Source of the DNA: Lophium mytilinum
Taxonomy: Eukaryota; Ascomycota; Dothideomycetes; Mytilinidiales; Mytilinidiaceae
Assembly: GCA_010093605.1 (NCBI GenBank)
Contig: MU004197.1
Span: 1,116,001-1,180,000 of the forward strand
Reading direction: 5' to 3'
DNA: 64,000 bases
Positions 39,647 through 64,000 of the stretch are shown here, piece by piece. The position numbers and the translations under genes were made by a program. Positions within the stretch are counted from its first letter, which is position 1. Every line of letters begins with the position of its first letter. The notes below the pieces were generated by a model, which worked only from the letters and a program-made list of their open reading frames with translations, was not told where the DNA came from and searched no databases.

Positions 39647-39882
39647 TGTCAAAGGTAAAGAGTTGAAGTAAGAACATATGGATAGATAGATAGGAATTGT
39701 ATTGCTTTTGTTCTATTCTACATCGACAGCAACGGAGTATATATACAGCATTTAATGCATTATAAAACGTTTCTCTAACGTTCGTTATATCACGTTCAAA
39801 CGCCCACAGGTTCGTCCCGTTTAAAGGCTTTTAAGACTATTATGCGTAAAGATACAACGCTGATGCTATTATCAATCTTACA
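39647..39882 (-). mobile_element. solo LTR of the window's copia family, with target duplication
   Basis: A 236-base LTR starting TGTCAAAGG and ending CTTACA, bounded on both sides by the 5-base direct repeat GAAAC (39642-39646 and 39883-39887). It resembles the LTR of the copia element at 61985-62248 along its length and contains a short GATA run near its start. No internal region is attached, so it is a solo LTR left by LTR-LTR recombination. Strand follows the copia coding direction. Confidence 0.88.
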
Positions 39883-40060
39883 GAAACTTTGTTAGTGGAT
39901 AGCGTAAAAAGTGGAATAGAAGTACTACTAAAGAAGCATAATAAGAAAGTATCTATGCTATTATTACACTAAGTCCTAAATTACACTTGCTCCTAGATAT
40001 TTTAGCACTAGAGATAGAGCTTATAAGTTGTAGTGGTATTATATTAGTTGCAGGATCTAT

Positions 40061-40161
40061 TATTAACCGTATAAATATTTAGTCCAATAAAATAGATAAG
40101 ATATATATAAAAGCATAAAGAATAGATATATAGATAGATAAATAGGATAGAATAGATAGAT

Positions 40162-40231
<70 letters not shown>

Positions 40232-40249
40232 GAGGATAGATGGTAGGAG

Positions 40250-40329
<80 letters not shown>

Positions 40330-40600
40330 GATAAATAGATAGATAGATAGGAGGAAAGATAGATAGGTAGATAGATAGATAGAAGGAATTATATTACTTA
40401 AGGACTATTATACACTAATAGTAACAGAGTTGTTTATATACACTATTTAATACGTTTTAAAACGCTGCTCTACCTCGCTTCTAACGTTATGTATTTTTTA
40501 TTATATTATATCCAAACGTTTTTAGTTCTATTTCCCATTGAAAGGCTTTTAAGTCTATTATGTATAAGAATATAACAGTTATACTATTATAAAACTTATA
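40061..40600 (-). mobile_element. decayed LTR copy with expanded GATA array
   Basis: The right 215 bases (about 40386-40600) align with the same LTR family, in the same orientation as the copy at 39647. The left end is less certain, and the internal GATA run is enlarged to about 260 bases. It is strongly AT-shifted relative to the better copies, so it is probably older or more heavily RIP-affected. No target duplication is evident. Confidence 0.6.
40121..40384. repeat. (GATA)n microsatellite
   Basis: Long runs of the tetranucleotide gata, broken by gaggat, gaaa and aata variants. It sits at the position where the LTR family normally has a short GATA run. Confidence 0.9.
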
Positions 40601-40887
40601 ATTATATACTAAACTTATAGGAGACTAAAGGCTGCCTCTATATCTAGATTAAGAGGATAGAATGATGCTTACTAGTACTTATACATTAATGGTATACCTC
40701 TAGCTAATAGTAGAGCAACTAACCGCTAGTTAGATATAGTGTAACAGCTAGTCAAGAATACTAGTAAAGCGCAATCTAGAAGATATAATAGTGAGGTAGA
40801 TCTACTGCGCAATAGGGGAAGTATACTTACTAGAATATATAAAGATCTTTTTTTAAAACGCTTCTCTTAGAAGAATAATTCAGCTAA

Positions 40888-41148
40888 TGTAAGTTTTATA
40901 ATACTATAAGCGCTATATCCTTACGCATTGTAGGTCTAAAAGTCTTCAAACGGAATAAAACCGTGAGCGTTTAAACGTGATACAATAAACGTTAGATAAC
41001 GTTACAAGAACGTTAGATAAATGTTTTACAATGCATTAAATGCTGTATATATAATTCGTTCCTGTCGATGTAGAATAGAACTTAAGTAATACGATTCCTA
41101 TGTATCTATCTATTTATCTATTCTCACATCAACTCTATACCTTTAAGA
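40888..41148 (+). mobile_element. LTR copy of the same copia family, opposite orientation
   Basis: About 261 bases matching the family in reverse, from TGTAAG to the CTCTATACCTTTAAGA end. It is moderately decayed. Flanking 5-mers do not match, so either they have decayed or it is one end of a lost element. Confidence 0.75.
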
Positions 41149-42005
41149 GGAGCATCTATACCTAATAAAATGCTGTTCCCCTCGTCTTAGAGGAGGGCTT
41201 TCCTAACATAGGCTACTTTTCTTCTTTAAGTAAATAACCCTATATAAGGCTATTATATAGCGCCTTTATAGAGCAAAATTAGTATCTATATTTCTATCTA
41301 TCTATCTATCTACCTTTCTATATACCTTTTATATGCCTTTCTATATACCTTTCTATATACCTTTCTATATACCTTTCTTTCTATCTATCTATATATCTAC
41401 CTATTTATATCTTTTTTTATATATCTGTTTAGAGTATGTTTTATTATATTAGCCTTTTTAACTTTAAGTTAACTAAGTTACTATATATCTTTATAAGATG
41501 TAGAAAGGTAACATTCATACTATAGTTCTTATTATTCATAAGGATAGCCTATAAGTAGAGCCTAATATAGCAGAATCTTAACTTTTAACAGCTTATAGTA
41601 GATAGATACCTCTTCTTAGGAGCTGTATACCTTCCCTCTATTTAATCTTATGAATAGCTTTAAGAGCCGCCTATAGGGCTTCTCTAAATAGAACTGTTTA
41701 TATCATATTCAAGTGCAGAATTGGCAGCAGCTAAGATCTAGAGAGAAAAAGAATAACGCGTGCAACAACTGGATGATTGCTATGCTTCTGCAACTTGCAG
41801 TAACCCTGAGATATTCTACAAGAGACACGAGTGCTCTACACAATGTTTCCACTGTAAGGAATGCTGGTGCTCGAATGTGGACAAATAGGAATTGCATTCC
41901 TTGTTATCATTAAGGAATGGAGATTTAGGAACGTTAACATATTATAGCCCTCTTGCATAGTCTGTACTCTAATGCGTCCCTTTCCTCCTTCTCCCTACAG
42001 AAGCA
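41149..42005. other. AT-rich, low-complexity stretch
   Basis: Contains a TATC and ctttctatatac repeat tract near 41281-41400 and otherwise TA-rich text. Composition returns to normal at about 41700. No gene is seen. Confidence 0.6.
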
Positions 42006-42789
42006 ATGCGTACCTCTTTGGCCAATGGTTTCCTTGCTGGTATTGTGCTCTTTATGTTGGGATTTGATTGTGCTCTTGCAAACAAGGCATTGGATGCGCC
42101 AACAGATACCATAACCTCATTCCCTTGTGATACAACCGAGCTACCCTTTTTGTAAGTTCGTTCCAACTGGATCTCCTGGGCCCTTATGTTCATGCCGATT
42201 GTCCGTAGGCGCTACGACTCTTGCACTTCTTCCCTTAGCAGCCGTGTCCAGGGATGTGCTTTTACCGACGCAAAATGTGCCTGTAACGCGGCCTCGTCTG
42301 GGTTCAGGTGAGCCTTCGCAATAACAGTCGAGTTTGTTATCTACTAATGCATCATCCTTTAGTTGTCTCACAGATTGGTGTCCCAGCTATACATCAGCAA
42401 TTTGCCCAGCATCGTTCTTCATTTCCGCGGGTTGCTCTCTGGCAGGCGAACCAGGACCCAGTTTTACTCATTATTCTTGCCCGACGACTTTCAGCGACGA
42501 CGTCTCTTCTGAATTTGCATCCCTGTTTGATTATATTAGCACCGCTTTCGAAACGGGCGCTAGCAGTACTTCCAAGGCTTTATCGGGAGGCAAAGCGAAG
42601 GAGACAGGAGGATCGACAGCTACAACTCCGATTGCAACATCAACCAGTTTCACCATTACAGCTCCTTCCAACACGGCCAAGCCAGGGAATGCAAATTCGG
42701 TGCTCTCTGACAATAGATTATTTCAAAAAGTGATGCCGATGCTCGTTGCGGTGGGTTTAGGGCTCGGAGGTGTGGCTGTAATTTTATAG
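42006..42789 (+). CDS. small secreted cysteine-rich CFEM-like, GPI-anchor-like protein
   Basis: Exons 42006-42151, 42209-42307 and 42363-42789, 223 residues. The signal peptide is about 1-25 (MRTSLANGFLAGIVLFMLGF, cut near ALA). The mature part has ten cysteines: 41, 54, 65, 72, 74, 83, 88, 96, 106 and 121. The core C54-x10-C65-x2-TD-x2-C72-x-C74-x8-C83-x4-C88 matches the CFEM pattern, including the Asp (D69) that binds haem iron in known CFEM domains. The first cysteine and two spacings deviate, so it is CFEM-like rather than typical. A Ser/Thr/Gly-rich stalk follows, then a C-terminal hydrophobic tail (MPMLVAVGLGLGGVAVIL) as in GPI-anchored wall proteins. Known CFEM proteins take up haem iron or act as effectors. 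It stands alone between an AT-rich repeat island and ordinary genes, the setting typical of effector candidates. Confidence 0.82.
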
Positions 42790-53878: not shown

Positions 53879-54276
53879 ATCCCTTACATAGTCAGAAGTC
53901 TATAGAAGCTTTTTGACAATACATATATAGGACATGAATACCTGTACATACACCTCGTTTTCGGTGTTTGTAAACCCCCTTTTGTCTGATCTTCTGAATG
54001 GCCAGAACGGCTAGGAGCTTCGTCCGGTGCGCTGTTCTTAAATGGATCTGCGTTGTATGTAAGGCTATAACTTTACAGCCTCTCTATTCTAATATGCAGT
54101 CCTTCCAATGCCTTCAGCCGTATAAAAGGACTTTAAAGTATGTTTAAACTGTTAAACCTTGCTTTATAAGGGCTCCTTTACAAGTAAGTCTTCTAATTAG
54201 ATACCCTCCCACGTCTTTAATATACACTACAGGCTAATAATAAAGCTCTTTATAACTAACCCTTCTATCTAGAGAG

Positions 54277-54532
54277 TATTAAAGGTATAAGTTAGTATAA
54301 AAATAGATAGATAGATAGATAGAAAGTATATTACTTTAGTTCTATACTATATAGATAGTAACGGAGATATATATATATATAGTTTAATAGATTATAAAAT
54401 ACTTCTCTAATACTCTTCTAATATTTAATAATTCTTATATTACCTTTAAATACTTATAGCTTTATTCTATTTTATAGCTTATAAGCCTATTATAGATAAG
54501 AATATAATACTTATACTATTATAAAACTTATA
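54277..54532 (-). mobile_element. solo LTR with target duplication, strongly AT-shifted
   Basis: About 256 bases of the same LTR family as the copies at 39647 and 61985, flanked on both sides by GAGAG (54272-54276 and 54533-54537). It carries the internal GATA run near its left end. It is much more AT-shifted than the copy at 61985, so probably older or more exposed to RIP. Confidence 0.82.
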
Positions 54533-55019
54533 GAGAGAAGATAAAAATTAAGTACTATTCTACTATTATACTACTTTATTCTATAGTACCTTATTCTATT
54601 ATATTTTATTCTATAGTGCCTTATTATTTAAGCTAGGCAGCTAACTATACTTTATATAAGTAGGTTTAAAGTTAGGTATAAGTATAGAGTTATATTAATA
54701 GTTACTAGAAGGCTATATTAAAAGATAGATAGGGTATATTATAAAGGTAAAGAATAAAAATATATTTACTTATATTTAGTAGTATATTTAGAGAAAGTAT
54801 TTAGAATTATTAAAAATAGTAAGTAAGTAAATTAAGTAGATTAAAGTTAGGGGAGGCATTCTAATAGACTCCCTTTTAGCTTGTAATATACCCTTTATAT
54901 AAACTAAGTACACCCCTTATATCTAATCTTCTAATTAGCCTAAAAGACTTAGATTACTACTCTAGCGCTTAAATTCTATATATATCTACTTTCTATTTCC
55001 TATATATATAGGCTATTAA

Positions 55020-56590
55020 AAGAAATACTAAAATTATAATTTAACCTATATTATTATATAGGCGTTTCTTTCTATCTTATTTAAACTATAAGGCTTATAT
55101 AAGAGTAAGAATTATATTTATTACTAGTATAGTAATATTATATTATAGCTAGAGGTTATCTTTAAAGATATTATTCTTAACGCTGCTAAAATAGTAGAGT
55201 TTTTACAAGTCTTAGTACTTAATAATAATAATAATAAATAGAGAAATAGAGTAAAAACTATCTAATATCTATATACCTAGGTAGGCTATTCCGCCCTAGG
55301 GCTATGCTAGCGCCTATACTTACTAGTAGAAGTAATAGAACTAATCTATTTAAATAATAGAATACCTCTATACCTAGCTATAGCGGAGGCCCTTACACTT
55401 ATATCTCCCTTAGATAAAATAACCCTAGATAGAGCTATAAGGCGTAAAAGTAAGAACTATAGTAGGTTTAGTTAGTAGATAATAAGAAGTAGTAGCTATA
55501 TAGTATTAGGTTACTATAATAACCTTCTATCTATAAAATATAGTTAGCCTATTATTATAAGAGCGTTATAGGTAATATAAAGGGGCCTCTTCTAGGCTAT
55601 AAGGCGTAGTATATAATAGTAGTAATAGCTAGCTCTAGGTCTCTTTAAACGCCTAGTAGACTTATAGTAGATAATAGCTAGCTACTTAGTTTATAGTAAG
55701 TATATAGAAGTAAATATATATACTTTCTATTTAGCTACTTATATATAGCTAAATAAGCTATAGCTTATATAGTACCTCTATATACTAAAACTAATAGTAA
55801 GTATATAGTAGCCTTTCTATCTATATATATAGCTAAATAGGCTCTACCTAGATAGTACCTCTATACTATAGATAGTAAGTATATAGCGTAGCCTTCTATA
55901 GCCTTACTATTAGCTAGCTAGCTAGCTAATATCTACTATATAGAAAGAAGAATTAATACCTTACTAATAATACTATCTATATAGCCTAAATAGATAGATA
56001 CGCGTATTAGTCTATTATACTAGAGGAAATATATAGTAACTTATAGTAATAGGCTTAAGAAGTAAATAGGTAGAAATAGGCGTATTATTACCTAGTAATA
56101 GAGGCTTAGGTAGGTAAGCTAAACTAAAGGTATCTATCTCTATATATATTATAATATATATATTTTTACCTATAAACCCGCCTTTAACGTAGAATACGCG
56201 TGCACCTATACTACGCGCGTGCCCTTACGCTAATTCTATACTAGTAAACCGCCCCGGATTCTAATTAATCTAACCTAAACCTAGAAGGATAACTATAACC
56301 TAATCTAGATTAATCTAGAAAGACGCATTATAATAGCTTATTCTATGGCAGGCCTAATAGACCTACTACGCGTCCCTAATAGCTAAATAATACTATAAAA
56401 GAGGGCGCTTAGCTTAATATACTATAGAAGATAAGGTTTTTATCTAATAGCTACTTAGTAGTAAACGGTTTTCTTCTTATAACTAGCCTAGATAGAACAG
56501 CTATATAGACCCTAATAGAAGCTATACTAGCTTAATAGAATTTAATAATAATAATATAGGCTATTATATTGCTATATATATATATATATA
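55020..56590 (+). repeat. left arm of a long imperfect inverted repeat
   Basis: Blocks at about 55020-55210, 55200-55690, 55910-56050 and 56200-56590 occur again in inverted order and orientation at about 60100 down to 57790. This arm is more AT-shifted than its partner where the two are compared. The element type is not recognised; it may be two copies of one transposon facing each other. Confidence 0.75.
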
Positions 56591-57496
56591 TATATACCTA
56601 GAAGTATGCTAAAATAGTTTAAATCTTACCTTAGTACGGCCCCTCTATATTAAACCTAGCCCCCCTATATTGCCGCCGCCCCCATTGCCGCTTAATCTAG
56701 GATGAGCGCTAGTCTGACGCTATATCGCCTTCTTCTGTGGTGTAAAGGAAGTTGTAGGCCCGTAGCGGCTAGAGGTCTATAGTAAGTGTATTCTAGAGAG
56801 AGCATTTCTAATTTATAAGCAACTTAAGCAAGTAAATTAGAGGCCTAGGAGCGACCCTCCGGACTAATTAGATAATTAGACGTAAAGGTGGTGTGCATAG
56901 AGTAAAAAGGGGGTGTTAGAACCCCTCCCCTAAATTTATGCTTTAAAATAACTATAAAGACTAGATAAAAAAGGTAAGATGAGAGTAAGTAAGTATACAG
57001 CTACTAAGAAGAGGTAGAAAAAGGAAAGGTATTTTAGTACTATAAAAGGAGCATATAGGTACTTATATCTTCTATATTATAAAGTAAAAGAACTCTAGTC
57101 TTTTAAGTAAAGACTTCTTTATATAATCTATAAGCTTAGGCTAAACTTTATTTTAGTAAGTAGGCTACTAACTATAGTAAATACTTATGCTGCTAATATA
57201 GAGCTAATTAAAATAGTATAATAGTATCTTATATATCTACTAAAAGTAGACTACTATTTCCACTTTAAAAGCTAGTAGATTTTAGATAAAAGGGTGTAGT
57301 TTAGTAAAGAGTCTAATTGAGTAAAATCTATTTAGTTATCTAGAATTAGTCCTAGAGTTTATTATAAACTATACTACTTGATAAGCTATATCTATGTTAA
57401 TAAGTAGAAGCTCTATAGATACTCTACGCTATAATATAGGTTATAGATAGATAGATAGAAAGTATATTAAGATAAAAGAGATATAAATACAGGAAA

Positions 57497-57580
57497 ATAG
57501 ATAGGTAGATAGATAGATAGGTAGATAGATAGATAGGTAGGTATATAGATAGATAGATAGGTAGGTAGATATATAGATAT

Positions 57581-57668
<88 letters not shown>
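57497..57668. repeat. (GATA)n microsatellite
   Basis: Interrupted ataggtag-type units on the left, then an uninterrupted gata run. It is preceded by a gatagatagatagaaagtatatta segment resembling the start of the LTR family at 54310-54340. Confidence 0.9.
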
Positions 57669-57669
<1 letters not shown>

Positions 57670-57789
57670 AGAAAAGTATTTTATATAGTATACTCTATAC
57701 TCTAAGTAAAGGGACTTAGTATATACTAAGAAAATCCCCCTCTAAGATTAGCTAGGGTAACTAGTTTACTTTTAGGTACTATAGTAAAG

Positions 57790-60100
57790 TGGATTAATGT
57801 AAGTATATAAATATTATATTATTATTATTAAATTCTATTACGCTAGTGTAGCTCCCGTTAGGGTCTATATAGCTGTTCTATCTAGGCTAATTTATAAGGG
57901 GAAACTATTTACTACTAGGTAGCGTTTAGGTAAAAACCTTATCCTCTATTATATCTAGTATTAGGCGCCCTTCTTCTTTATTTTTACTATAGGGAATATA
58001 TAGTAGGTCTATAAAAACTACTATAGAATAAGCTTTTAAGATATATCTTTCTATATCTATCTAGAAAGGTTTATTATTATTCTTCTAGATACAGGCTAAG
58101 TAGAATCTAGATAGGAGGCTAGTATAGAGTTAGTATAAGGGCCCGCGTATAAGTAGTATATATATAGGGCCTTTATCTAAGGTAATAATAGTAAAGTAAA
58201 TAGTAGCTATATAGGCTATTAGAATAGAAAAGCTATATAGTATATAGATAGTATATAGTAAAGGTATATAGTAAGTATATAGTTTATAGATAGTCTATTA
58301 TTTTATAAGTAGGCTATAAGAGTAGAAGGGCTATAAGTAGCTATAGGGTTTATAGCTATAGTAGTAAGTATAAGCCCCTATAGTATAGCTAATAGCTATA
58401 AAAGGGCTAAGAGTATAGAGTATATAGTTTATAGTCTATAAGTAGAAAGTATATAGCTACTTATAGTAAGTATAAGCCTTTATAGTATAACTAACTAATA
58501 GTAGAAAGAAGCCGCGTATATATACTATTATAAAGTAGATAGGCTATTTAGAAATAGAAGAGCTATAGAGAATAGAAAGTATATACTATAGAGTATATAG
58601 TAGAGACCTAAAGCTAACTATCTATTAGTTCTAGTATACTATAGAGAGTATATAGCTATATATAGTAAGTATAAGCCTCTATAGTATAGCTAAGGGCTAT
58701 AGCTTAGCTAAGGGCTATACTGCGGCTATAGTTAGTAATAGCAGGGTTGTTAGTAATAGTAGGGTTATTAGTAATAGTAAGGCTATTAGTAATAGTAAGG
58801 CTATTAGTAATAGTAAGGCTATTAGTTATAGCTAGGCTATATATAATAGCAGGGCTATAGTATTAAGCAGGAGGGTTAAATCTACTTCTTTTCTATCTCT
58901 CTTACTATTAAGAGGTAGGGTAGCAGGTCTATTTTCTATAGAAACTACCTAGCTACTACTTTAGGTCTCTTTTTACTTTTATATATTTTCTTATATATCT
59001 AAGCTAAAATATATTTATATTATAGAGCTATAAAAGTTATATATAAAGTAGAGTTAGGCGTAGCCCTTCTACTAGAACTTTCTACTATAGATATAGCTTA
59101 TTAAATATATACCTCTATTCTATATATATTTAATTTACTTTATAAGCCTATCTTATAGCTAGCCTCTACCTTTTAATAGACTAATACGCGTATTTATTCT
59201 TTTAGGCTATATAGATAGTATTATTAGTAAGAGTTTAATTCTTTCTCTACTATAGGTCTACTAAGAGTTAAAGCCTAGTAAAGAGGTAAGGTTCTTAGAG
59301 CTATCTATTATTACTATTATATACTACGCCCTGCAGCTCTTTTAGTTCTAGTAGCTATTTTATATTACCTATATTATTCTTATAATAATAGGCTAACTAT
59401 ATCTTATAGATAGAGGTATTAGCCTAATAGTATACCTAGTAGCTAGCTATTATTCTAATAGTAACCTAATACTATACAGCTACTATACCTTCTATCTACT
59501 AACTAAACTTATTATTCTCTCTTAGCTACTACCTATATTTTTATCTATTCCAGTACTATGTTAATATATTCTCCCCCTACTTTTAAGTCTATTTCTAGCT
59601 CTTTAAGTTCTGGATTAATATTACTGCGGCTAATTTAATATTAATGTAATAAGAATTAACGTTGTCTAATATAGTTAATAGTACTAGAATTCTCCCTATC
59701 CTTACTATAAGTATAATCTTAGAATAGAATAAGTATACCAGTATTCTATTCTATTACTAGGCCTTCTACTTCTACTAGTAAATATAGGCGCTAGCTTATA
59801 GTCTAGGATAGTAAGCTTCTAGATAGTAATAGGTTAGGTAGTTCTTAAGAAAGTTCTACTATTTAAATTTCTATCTATAGATGTTAAGTTTTAGTAGTAG
59901 TAGGCCGCTAAGACCTATAAAAACTCTACTATTCTAGCGGTATTAAGGATAACATCTTTAAAGACGACCTCTAGTAGTAACGCAACGCCGCTGCACTAGT
60001 AATAAATATAATTCTTACTCTTGTGTAAGCCTTGCAGTTTAAATAAGATAGAAAGGAACCCCTATATAATAATACGGGTCGAATTATAATTTTAATGTTC
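57790..60100 (-). repeat. right arm of the long imperfect inverted repeat
   Basis: Reverse-complement partner of 55020-56590. Matching blocks lie near 57790-58160, 59150-59260, 59290-59800 and 59930-60100. It carries about 0.9 kb of extra sequence (about 58160-59100), including the 18-base minisatellite. It keeps more C and G than the left arm at matching sites. Confidence 0.75.
58733..58858. repeat. 18-base minisatellite, seven units
   Basis: Seven head-to-tail units of the form tagtaatagtaaggctat begin at 58733, 58751, 58769, 58787, 58805, 58823 and 58841. Units 3-5 are identical and the outer units have diverged. Confidence 0.9.
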
Positions 60101-60239
60101 CTTCCCTTTAATTATTATATAGTAGTTATTATTGTTTTTTTAAATACCTAAAGTTCTATCCCTATTTAAAGGCTTTTAAAGCCTACTATATAAAAGAATA
60201 TATTACTTAGGATTTTATAAAATTTATATATATTATCCT

Positions 60240-60860
60240 TAATACTACTATAATAGTAGAGCTCTTATAAGAGCCTTTATAAAGCTTTATATAATTAATA
60301 ATAAAATAAAAAGGTAGATTTAAAACTATCTAGTTTTCTATTATATAATTAGGTAGGCTATTCCAACCTATAGCTTTACTAGTACCTTTACTTACTAGTA
60401 GAAGTAATAGAACTACTTTATTATAATAGTAGAACACCTTTTTACTAATTTAACTAATATAGCACCTCTAGGTAGGTAGATAAATAAACGCTACTATAAA
60501 TAAATAAGTATACAAGCTAGGACCTAGAAGCTAATAGGCGTAAGAGGAAGAAAGATAATAGTCTAGTTAGTAGGTATAAGGGATAATAGCTACGTAGTAT
60601 TAAGTTATTAGATATAATATACTCTTTCTTTAACTTATAATTGGCCTATTATTGCATAAGCGTTATATATAATATAAAGAGGCTCTACTTTATAGAAAGA
60701 GGTAATTACTATAGGGCGTTATATATTATAGTAGTAGTAGTAGTTATAGTAGTAGTAGTCAGCTCTAGGCTTCTATAGATAGCTAGTAGACTTATAGTAA
60801 GTAGTAGTTTCCTAGTAGTAATAGTAAGTTTATAAAGGTATATATAAATATACTTTCTAT
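60240..60860 (+). repeat. third copy of the inverted-repeat family
   Basis: Matches about 55180-55690 in the same orientation, including the cttactagtagaagtaatagaac block and the tagcctattattataagagcgttat-like block. Just left of it (about 60110-60236) lies sequence resembling the right end of the copia LTR family. Confidence 0.7.
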
Positions 60861-60881
60861 TCTATTCCTTTTATCTGCTTC

Positions 60882-60976
<95 letters not shown>

Positions 60977-60986
60977 NNNNNNNNNN

Positions 60987-61081
<95 letters not shown>

Positions 61082-61082
61082 A
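60882..61082. repeat. (TATC)n microsatellite containing an assembly gap
   Basis: A pure tatc array interrupted by ten N at 60977-60986. The gap lies inside the array, so the true array length is unknown. Confidence 0.95.
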
Positions 61083-61491
61083 TACTTACCCTAATAATAA
61101 TATAGATAGGGGATATATAATATATATAGATAGATAGATATTACTTAGATATTATATTACTACTTCTCCCTTTAGATTCTAATATATATGCTAGAAGGTA
61201 TAGGCTTAAGCTAGCTTATAGTACTTAAACCTACTATATTATAAATTTAGGGGAGGTAGGGTATAATAATAAAGACTCTACATACTCTTAAAGCCCTTAA
61301 ATTAAGAATTATTATATTTTCTTTTAGTTTTTTTCTATATTAGAACTAAGACCTCTTATATTAGTATATTTATAAATAAGCCTAATCCAAAGGTAGTATA
61401 GCTAAGAGAGCGCCTTCTCTTTTTATACCCACTCTTATTACTCTAGATCTACATCTAGAGTAGATTAGTAAAAGCACTTAATCCTTATATT

Positions 61492-61756
61492 TATAAGGTT
61501 TACAATAGTATAAGCGTTATATCCTTACGCATAATAGGCTTAAAAGCCTTTAAACGGGACAAAACCGTAAGTGTTTAAACGTGATACAACGAATATTAGA
61601 TAATGTTATAAGAATATTAGGGGAACGTTTTATAATGCATTAAATGCTGTATATATACTCCGTTGCTGTTAATGTAGAATAGAACTTAAGCAATACAATT
61701 CCTATCTATCTATCTATCTATCTATCTATCCTTACATCGACTCTATACCTTTAAGA
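61492..61756 (+). mobile_element. solo LTR with target duplication, opposite orientation
   Basis: About 265 bases of the copia LTR family in reverse, flanked on both sides by ATATT (61487-61491 and 61757-61761). It has a run of six TATC units at the family's usual place. It lies only about 230 bases from the LTR of the decayed copia element but in the other orientation, so it is an independent insertion. Confidence 0.85.
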
Positions 61757-61984
61757 ATATTCTGCCTTAGGAGTTAGAGCTTAAAGAAATTATTTCTATA
61801 GCCAGATCTAGGCGGCGCTAAACTTAGAGTGTCCACCTTTTGCAAAACACCTGCTCCTATGCCTTGTTTGAGAATTAAGGGCGTAGGAAAGCGGACCCGG
61901 CAAGTTTGCAATAAGCGCTGATAATGGTACAGAGTGTACTGCAAAAGTGTTATTACCTACACTTGTTTATAACTCCCATAGTAC

Positions 61985-62248
61985 TCTCAAAGGTATAGAG
62001 TCGATGTGAGAATAGATGGATAGATAGATAGATAGGAATTGTATTACTTGAGTTCTATTCTACATTAACAGCAACGGAGTTGTATATATACAGCATTTAA
62101 TGCATTGTAAAACGTTTCTCTAACGTTCTTGTAACGTTATCCAGCGTTCGTTGTATCACGTTCAAACGCTCACGGTTTTGTCCCGTTTGAAGTCTTTTGA
62201 GCCTATTATGCGTAAGGATATAACGCTTATGCTATTATAATCTTTACA
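61985..62248 (-). mobile_element. 3' LTR of the copia element at the right edge
   Basis: About 264 bases, the best-preserved LTR of the family here. On the minus strand a polypurine stretch, CTTAAGGGAGTG, ends exactly where the LTR begins (TGTAAAG), as expected of a 3' LTR downstream of the copia coding region. Confidence 0.85.
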
Positions 62249-62303
62249 CACTCCCTTAAGCGTTATATGCTTATTTTGTATATTCTTTTTTGAATAGATA
62301 GAG

Positions 62304-62390
<87 letters not shown>

Positions 62391-64000
62391 ATTTCTTTTT
62401 CTTCTTCTTTGCACAGATAGATAGATAGATAGATAGATAAAATCTATATATCTATGTATTTGCGCAATAGAGTTATATCTATATATCTATGTATCTATTT
62501 AGTGTCTAATCTCATATAGTCTACTATTTTAGTAAAACTACTTCCCACTAATGGTTTAGTGAATATATTAGTTATTTACTCCTTAGTATTAAGGTAGGCT
62601 AGCTTTATTAATCCATTTTAAACATTTTCTCTTACAAAATGATATTATATATCTATATGTTTAGTTTTTGAGTGGTGTTCAGGATTATTAGCTAATTCTA
62701 TAGCTGATTAACTATCCGTAAATAGATAGAAGTCTTCTGTATTTTTAATATTAAGTTGTTTTAATATACTTTTTAAGTATATATATTCTTTTATAGTTTC
62801 TTTTAAAGCTATATATTTAGCTTCGCAACTAGATAGTGCTATAGATCTCTATAGTTTACTATTCCAGCTAATAGGTGTTTTTCTATAGGAAAAGTAATAT
62901 CCTGTAGTAGATTTTCTTCCTATTATATTACCCCCGTAATCTGCATTAGAATAGCCTAATATATATAGTGCAGGATTATTAGGAGAAAATTTAACGCTTA
63001 TTCCTTGCGTAGGCTTATATAATAAGTATTTCCATATCCTTTCTAAGGCTTTAAAGTGAATAGGACTAGGATTAGACATAAAACAAGCGCATAGATTTAC
63101 GCTATAGGCTATATCTAGTCTTATTTTTATAGATAGATAGATAAGACTTCCAACTTATTATTAGTATAGTTTTATATCCTCTTTTAATGCCTGTTTATTG
63201 TTTTTCTCTAGTTTTATACCTATTTCTCCTAGTATAAAGACGGGATTTAGTTTCTCTTTATTAAATCTTTTTAATAGACTTTTTGTATACTTTTTCTAGC
63301 TTAATAATAGGGTTCTTTCCTTTCTATTATATATTATTTCCATGCCTAGAAAATAGGATATAGGCCCTAAGTTTATTAATTCTAAGTCTTTACTTAGTTT
63401 TAATTATAGATTTTCTATATCTTTTATATTTAGGCTAAATACTAATAAATTATCTATGTAGTAGACTATTATTATAGTTTTATTTTTAAATACTGCCTGC
63501 TCTGCAATAGTACTTTTAAAACTGTACTTTTCTAAATATATAGCTAAATGGATATACTATTGTCTAGGGGACTATTTTAAGCCGTATAATGCTTTATTTA
63601 GCTTATAGACTTTATTATTTATATTAAAACCATGTAGTTATTCTATGTATAGTTCTTTATCTAAGTCTATATGCGTAAATGCGTTTTTAAAATCCTATTA
63701 TATTATTTCCTAGTTATAATAAGTAGCTAATACAAGTAATAGCCTATATACTTCTAGGCGGCAGGTATTAGTAAAGGTTTCTTTATAATCTACGCTGTAG
63801 ACTTAGCTAAAACCTTTTACTACCCATCTTGCCTTATATTTAGATATATTATTATCTATATCGGTTTTAATTTTATAAACCCAGCGTCCTTTTAACGCAT
63901 TTCTATTTACTAGTAAGTCTACTAACTTCCAGGTATTTTACTTATTAAGCTAGTCTATTTCTATTTACATAGCTTCTTTCTATTTCTTATTATATAGAGA
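62249..64000 (-). mobile_element. decayed Ty1/copia retrotransposon, 5' part beyond the window
   Basis: The minus strand carries the end of a copia polyprotein. In coding order it shows reverse transcriptase (about 63950-63150; recognisable ALKGRWVYKIK, a YxDN-like active-site region and LGPISYFLGMEI), then RNase H (about 63080-62530; ILGYSNADYGG, RKSTTGY, CEAKYIALKE). A 3' untranslated stretch with GATA runs and the polypurine tract follow. The copy is clearly broken, with many interruptions of the reading frame, and is AT-shifted like the rest of the island. The 5' LTR, gag, protease and integrase would lie past 64000. Confidence 0.88.
62294..62440. repeat. two (GATA)n microsatellites in the copia 3' region
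   Basis: A run of about 97 bases (62294-62390) and a shorter one (about 62416-62440), separated by a C/T-rich spacer. Confidence 0.9.

Follow-up and report, generated by a model that had tools for sequence, protein, structure and literature searches.

A cysteine-rich protein gene of Lophium mytilinum with a possible divergent CFEM-type domain

The window analyzed here is a 64,000-nucleotide stretch of the genome of Lophium mytilinum (Mytilinidiales, Dothideomycetes; 43.2 Mb, 24 contigs), comprising bases 1116001-1180000 of contig C17 (MU004197.1). Its forward strand carries, at 42006-42789, a gene for a small cysteine-rich protein. Splicing of two GT-AG introns and translation from the ATG at 42006 to the TAG at 42787-42789 yields 223 residues, in keeping with a deposited protein (P0001, BU16DRAFT_585745; 100% identity over 95% of the query) and with an orthologue from Mytilinidion resinicola (P0002). 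Exon 1 (42006-42151) encodes a signal peptide (residues 1-25; 42006-42080) and Cys41 (42126-42128). Exon 2 (42209-42307, 99 nt) encodes Cys54, Cys65, Asp69 (42267-42269), Cys72, and Cys74. Exon 3 (42363-42789) encodes the segment from Cys83 to Cys121, a Ser/Thr stalk (about 42568-42729), and a hydrophobic tail (42730-42786), followed by the stop codon. Both introns (intron 1, 42152-42208, 57 nt; intron 2, 42308-42362, 55 nt, with a branch-like CTAAT site) lie in phase 2 and are present in the deposited model.

An earlier note, made from the sequence alone, described a secreted protein with ten mature cysteines, a displaced first cysteine, a Ser/Thr stalk, and a tail of the glycosylphosphatidylinositol (GPI) type. 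This description holds. Cysteines stand at residues 22, 41, 54, 65, 72, 74, 83, 88, 96, 106, and 121; Cys22 falls within the signal peptide, leaving ten in the mature part, and the first two of these are separated by 12 residues. Signal peptide and tail were assessed by simple hydropathy and sequence measures: the amino terminus is hydrophobic and leads to an ALA/NK site; Ser and Thr make up 34% of residues 145-205; and the carboxyl-terminal 17 residues are hydrophobic (mean Kyte-Doolittle value 2.28) with an uncharged end. A signal peptide combined with such a tail is the pattern of a GPI-anchored secreted protein, so predicted here. The motif TD-x2-CxC, also singled out in the note for its Asp at the haem-ligand position, reads T68-D69-A-K-C72-A-C74.

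The gene belongs to a small family. The Mytilinidion protein is 75% identical to it, and a metagenome protein (P0003) is 48% identical over 84%. Contig C17 also carries a paralogue, at about 870.7-871.5 kb, which encodes 204 residues when spliced; its cysteine spacing (11/10/6/1/8/4/7/9/14) departs from that of the present gene (12/10/6/1/8/4/7/9/14) in the first interval, its two introns are identical in phase, and its middle exon likewise measures 99 nt. The corresponding deposited protein (P0004) has the same length as the paralogue and matches it at 100% identity across the searched region. In the paralogue the tail is less pronounced, with a mean hydropathy of 1.63 and one Arg. With three family proteins as queries, and the best candidates scored, no third family copy was found in the genome; among 5.8 billion proteins, the search recovered P0001-P0003 for the gene and P0004 alone for the paralogue. 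This intact gene is thus more than a chance reading frame: its orthologue occurs in a second genus, and its paralogue shares the intron phases.

Two further observations concern these relatives. In the metagenome protein, which apparently includes translated introns, Gly and Ser jointly replace Cys83 and Cys88; this joint loss would fit either a mutual bond or a decaying copy. The UniRef name of P0001, P0002, and P0004 opens with "Extracellular membra", and its continuation to CFEM is a guess.

Does the cysteine domain derive from CFEM? Asp occupies the ligand position, where CFEM domains carry Asp or Asn, in all four family sequences, and the C2-C7 order and core motif of CFEM are present. 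A CFEM-type motif, C-x(5,12)-C-x(2,5)-[DN]-x2-C-x-C-x(7,13)-C-x4-C, occurs in three of the four family proteins and in 11 of 18 CFEM segments of the Lophium genome, as against 93 of 300,000 shuffled sequences. Two relatives also match the Pfam CFEM profile (PF05730) below its curated cut-off of 22 bits: P0004 scores 15.7 bits (E 0.015; residues 49-102 against profile positions 11-65 of 66), and its cysteines and its Asp fall into the expected register; P0003 scores 14.2 bits.

Several results weigh on the other side. The profile search proposed in the earlier note was negative for the protein itself, which had no Pfam match even at E 10. The eight-cysteine CFEM spacing, including C1-x3-C2, is not reproduced: the C1-C2 interval is 12 residues (11 in the paralogue), the C5-C6 interval is also short, and the cysteine total is ten. 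Profile comparison with 17 of the genome's CFEM segments points both ways: it speaks for CFEM, in that among cysteine-preserving shuffles a real score was equalled by 3 of 300 and by 16 of 500, but it is weak. Finally, the predicted structure models, an equivocal line of evidence on the helical-basket fold, look unlike Csa2 (4y7s). Thus the note's CFEM-like layout and conserved Asp stand, and its assignment to CFEM is less secure: membership, and with it common ancestry, is suggested rather than shown. (The genome holds 17 CFEM segments above the Pfam cut-off, L001-L008 and L022-L030; of these, L030 maps to 1220.7 kb of contig C17, some 62 kb from the gene.)

Our tentative first choice is a working gene for a GPI-anchored protein of the cell surface or wall that carries a divergent CFEM-type domain and probably binds haem through Asp69. 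A structural wall protein is a close second. According to this alternative, a real if less probable possibility, the gene represents a separate, lineage-restricted family of GPI-anchored cysteine-rich wall or surface proteins, structural or adhesive and haem-free, whose CFEM likeness is convergent. The absent Pfam match, the weak profile comparison, the models unlike Csa2, and the small number of relatives detected all favor a separate family; the sub-cut-off CFEM matches that two relatives show in the right register, the retention of Asp in four of four sequences, and the rarity of the motif in shuffles argue against convergence.

Starting from the established gene, layout, family, and conserved Asp, we infer anchoring, disulfides, ligand, and role for the preferred CFEM-type surface protein as follows. 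Cys54, 65, 72, 74, 83, 88, and 106 would correspond to CFEM cysteines 2-8; the place of the displaced cysteine 1 is probably taken by Cys41; and one added disulfide probably links Cys96 with Cys121. At the hyphal surface, Asp69 would probably bind haem or a similar iron ligand in the service of the fungus's own nutrition. Haem scavenging is a possible role.

AT-rich DNA (18-37% GC per 100 bp) extends to about 41.7 kb, 300 bp ahead of the ATG, as the earlier note had observed, and the identifiable repeat ends about 860 bp from the gene. This repeat, a neighbor of the gene and outside it (39647-41145, about 1.5 kb, no strand assigned), has inverted ends at 39678-39783 and 41008-41113 that are 89% complementary, and it bears the mark of repeat-induced point mutation (RIP). 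RIP was scored by a product index, TpA/ApT, and a substrate index, (CpA+TpG)/(ApC+GpT), with thresholds of > 1.15 and <= 0.75, respectively, as given in PMC7882544. At 39.5-41.5 kb the indices are 1.19-1.56 and 0.50-0.81, and three of four 500-bp segments pass both thresholds; at 54-64 kb they are 1.34-1.93 and 0.12-0.61, and all five 2-kb segments pass. The gene itself is free of the mark (0.74 and 1.36 over the gene). The downstream AT-rich, RIP-marked island measures about 13 kb, from 54001-64000 of the window to about position 1183500 of the contig, at 25-35% GC per kb.

The repeat has an unusual distribution. Its 258-base end piece was found at 45 places, all in a single cluster per contig, on 18 of the 24 contigs (best 40 of 112 first-look candidates). 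Among the matches listed, out of 272 in all, the repeat occupies 84 places; these too form a single cluster on each of 18 contigs, with spans of 0.4-62 kb. For an inner piece, 57 matches were obtained, most of them within or close to the end-piece clusters, the exceptions being a second site at 157-169 kb of contig C12 and one match on C1 (best 40 of 117). By comparison, the 61 matches of a control RIP-marked repeat (window 57000-59000; best 40 of 98) are scattered over several places per contig, for example at 598, 1173, 1246, and 1452-1460 kb of C17; some of its matches also fall inside the clusters. A single cluster per contig is expected of a centromere landmark, so the repeat beside the gene may be a candidate; Neurospora centromeres have been placed using AT-rich blocks, according to PMC7882544. 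On C17 the cluster runs from about 1155.6 to 1183.5 kb; the AT-rich DNA likewise stops near 1183.5 kb. The gene, along with about 12 kb of normal-GC genes, therefore lies between two parts of the cluster.

Neighboring genes are ordinary: an MFS transporter and a GDSL lipase upstream; a DUF4246 gene, a cation-efflux gene, a sugar transporter, and ORC2 downstream. The paralogue sits in normal-GC DNA (46-58% GC across its 4-kb surroundings). Just upstream of the gene, at 41757-41885, an open frame of 43 residues contains seven cysteines; no second copy was found in the genome, nor any Pfam match, and it is perhaps a relict exon or a product of chance.

The earlier note proposed an effector or haem-scavenger candidate and pointed out that fast-evolving effectors of plant-pathogenic dothideomycetes sit at such repeat borders. 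As a full explanation, the effector reading would be a released, host-directed protein that suppresses plant defense and evolves fast at the border; our results do not support it, and we consider it improbable. The protein is indeed small, secreted, and cysteine-rich, and is encoded 300 bp from AT-rich, RIP-marked DNA; moreover, CFEM effectors exist, among them the ten-cysteine VdSCP77 (PMC8867779). However, the tail is of the anchor type, the gene lacks the RIP mark, its neighbors are ordinary, its paralogue lies in normal-GC DNA, and the adjoining repeat forms one cluster per contig. The cysteine domain is identical to that of the Mytilinidion protein at 65 of 81 positions (80%) and the stalk at 31 of 54 (57%); judged without a genome-wide yardstick, such domain identity across genera would not be the picture of a fast-evolving head domain. 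Furthermore, both immune suppressors of Verticillium dahliae have Asn rather than Asp at the ligand position, whereas the other seven proteins have Asp, as described in PMC8867779.

Lophium mytilinum is a saprobe and is not known as an established crop pathogen. Strain CBS 269.34 is listed from Pinus (PMC11514609). A passage in PMC11898243 describes Mytilinidion as "primarily saprobic and plant pathogens", which lends the effector explanation some support; because the genus is called both, lifestyle alone does not decide.

The deposited model, if correct, would also make the protein freely secreted. It agrees with the two-intron reading in introns 1 and 2 and differs in the last residues, because it splices a 39-nt third intron (42751-42789, forward strand) that replaces the hydrophobic end, so that the NCBI protein terminates in TLREIMEDVDIS. 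This doubtful intron is very unlikely to be real: it is short, its acceptor coincides with the stop codon of the two-intron reading, and both P0002 and P0003 retain the hydrophobic tail, which suggests an annotation error and makes the two-intron end more likely.

Returning to the preferred CFEM-type surface protein, a more specific form of it, doubtful as a whole, posits a subfamily derived from CFEM, with ten cysteines and five disulfides, whose members so far come from Mytilinidiaceae and one metagenome. Its first cysteine would be shifted eight or nine residues toward the amino terminus, one disulfide would be added, haem would bind via Asp69 at the hyphal surface, and the gene would be flanked by two parts of a repeat cluster that is a centromere candidate. 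If the family did branch off from CFEM, a haem-ligand core is able to outlast profile detection, and fungal CFEM counts would therefore be too low; in the Lophium genome, the profile misses two genes of this kind beside the 17 segments above the cut-off. The locus also invites caution: an adjoining RIP-marked repeat is insufficient for an effector call, and this one resembles a one-per-contig landmark, perhaps centromeric.

Known CFEM systems provide several points of comparison. CFEM domains bind ferri-haem through Asp (PMC9635878). The haemophores Csa2, Rbt5, and Pga7 of Candida albicans likewise have a secreted cysteine-rich domain, with a cysteine order matching C2-C8 and an Asp three residues ahead of the first Cys of CxC, at the haem-ligand site; Rbt5 also shares the GPI-type anchor. 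The Lophium protein differs in lacking a Pfam match, in carrying two extra cysteines, in its first cysteine (12 residues ahead of the next, versus 3 in CFEM segments L003, L027, and L028), and in a Cys74-Cys83 spacer of 8 residues, versus 11-13 in CFEM. PMC11176510 describes the Csa2 helical basket, as well as CFEM domains in which the cysteines number six or seven. VdSCP77, compared here by description, likewise has ten cysteines, and one extra disulfide is predicted to reach past its CFEM domain (PMC8867779); in contrast, it is a recognized CFEM protein that acts on plant immunity and carries Asn, not Asp, as the residue in the ligand position. CFEM-fold domains are able to lose both cysteines and sequence similarity, and the amino-terminal domains of fungal ferric-reductase-like proteins provide a precedent for a CFEM fold with little sequence similarity and altered cysteines (PMC9635878). 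Those domains lose cysteines and form part of membrane reductases, whereas the Lophium protein has gained cysteines and lacks any reductase part.
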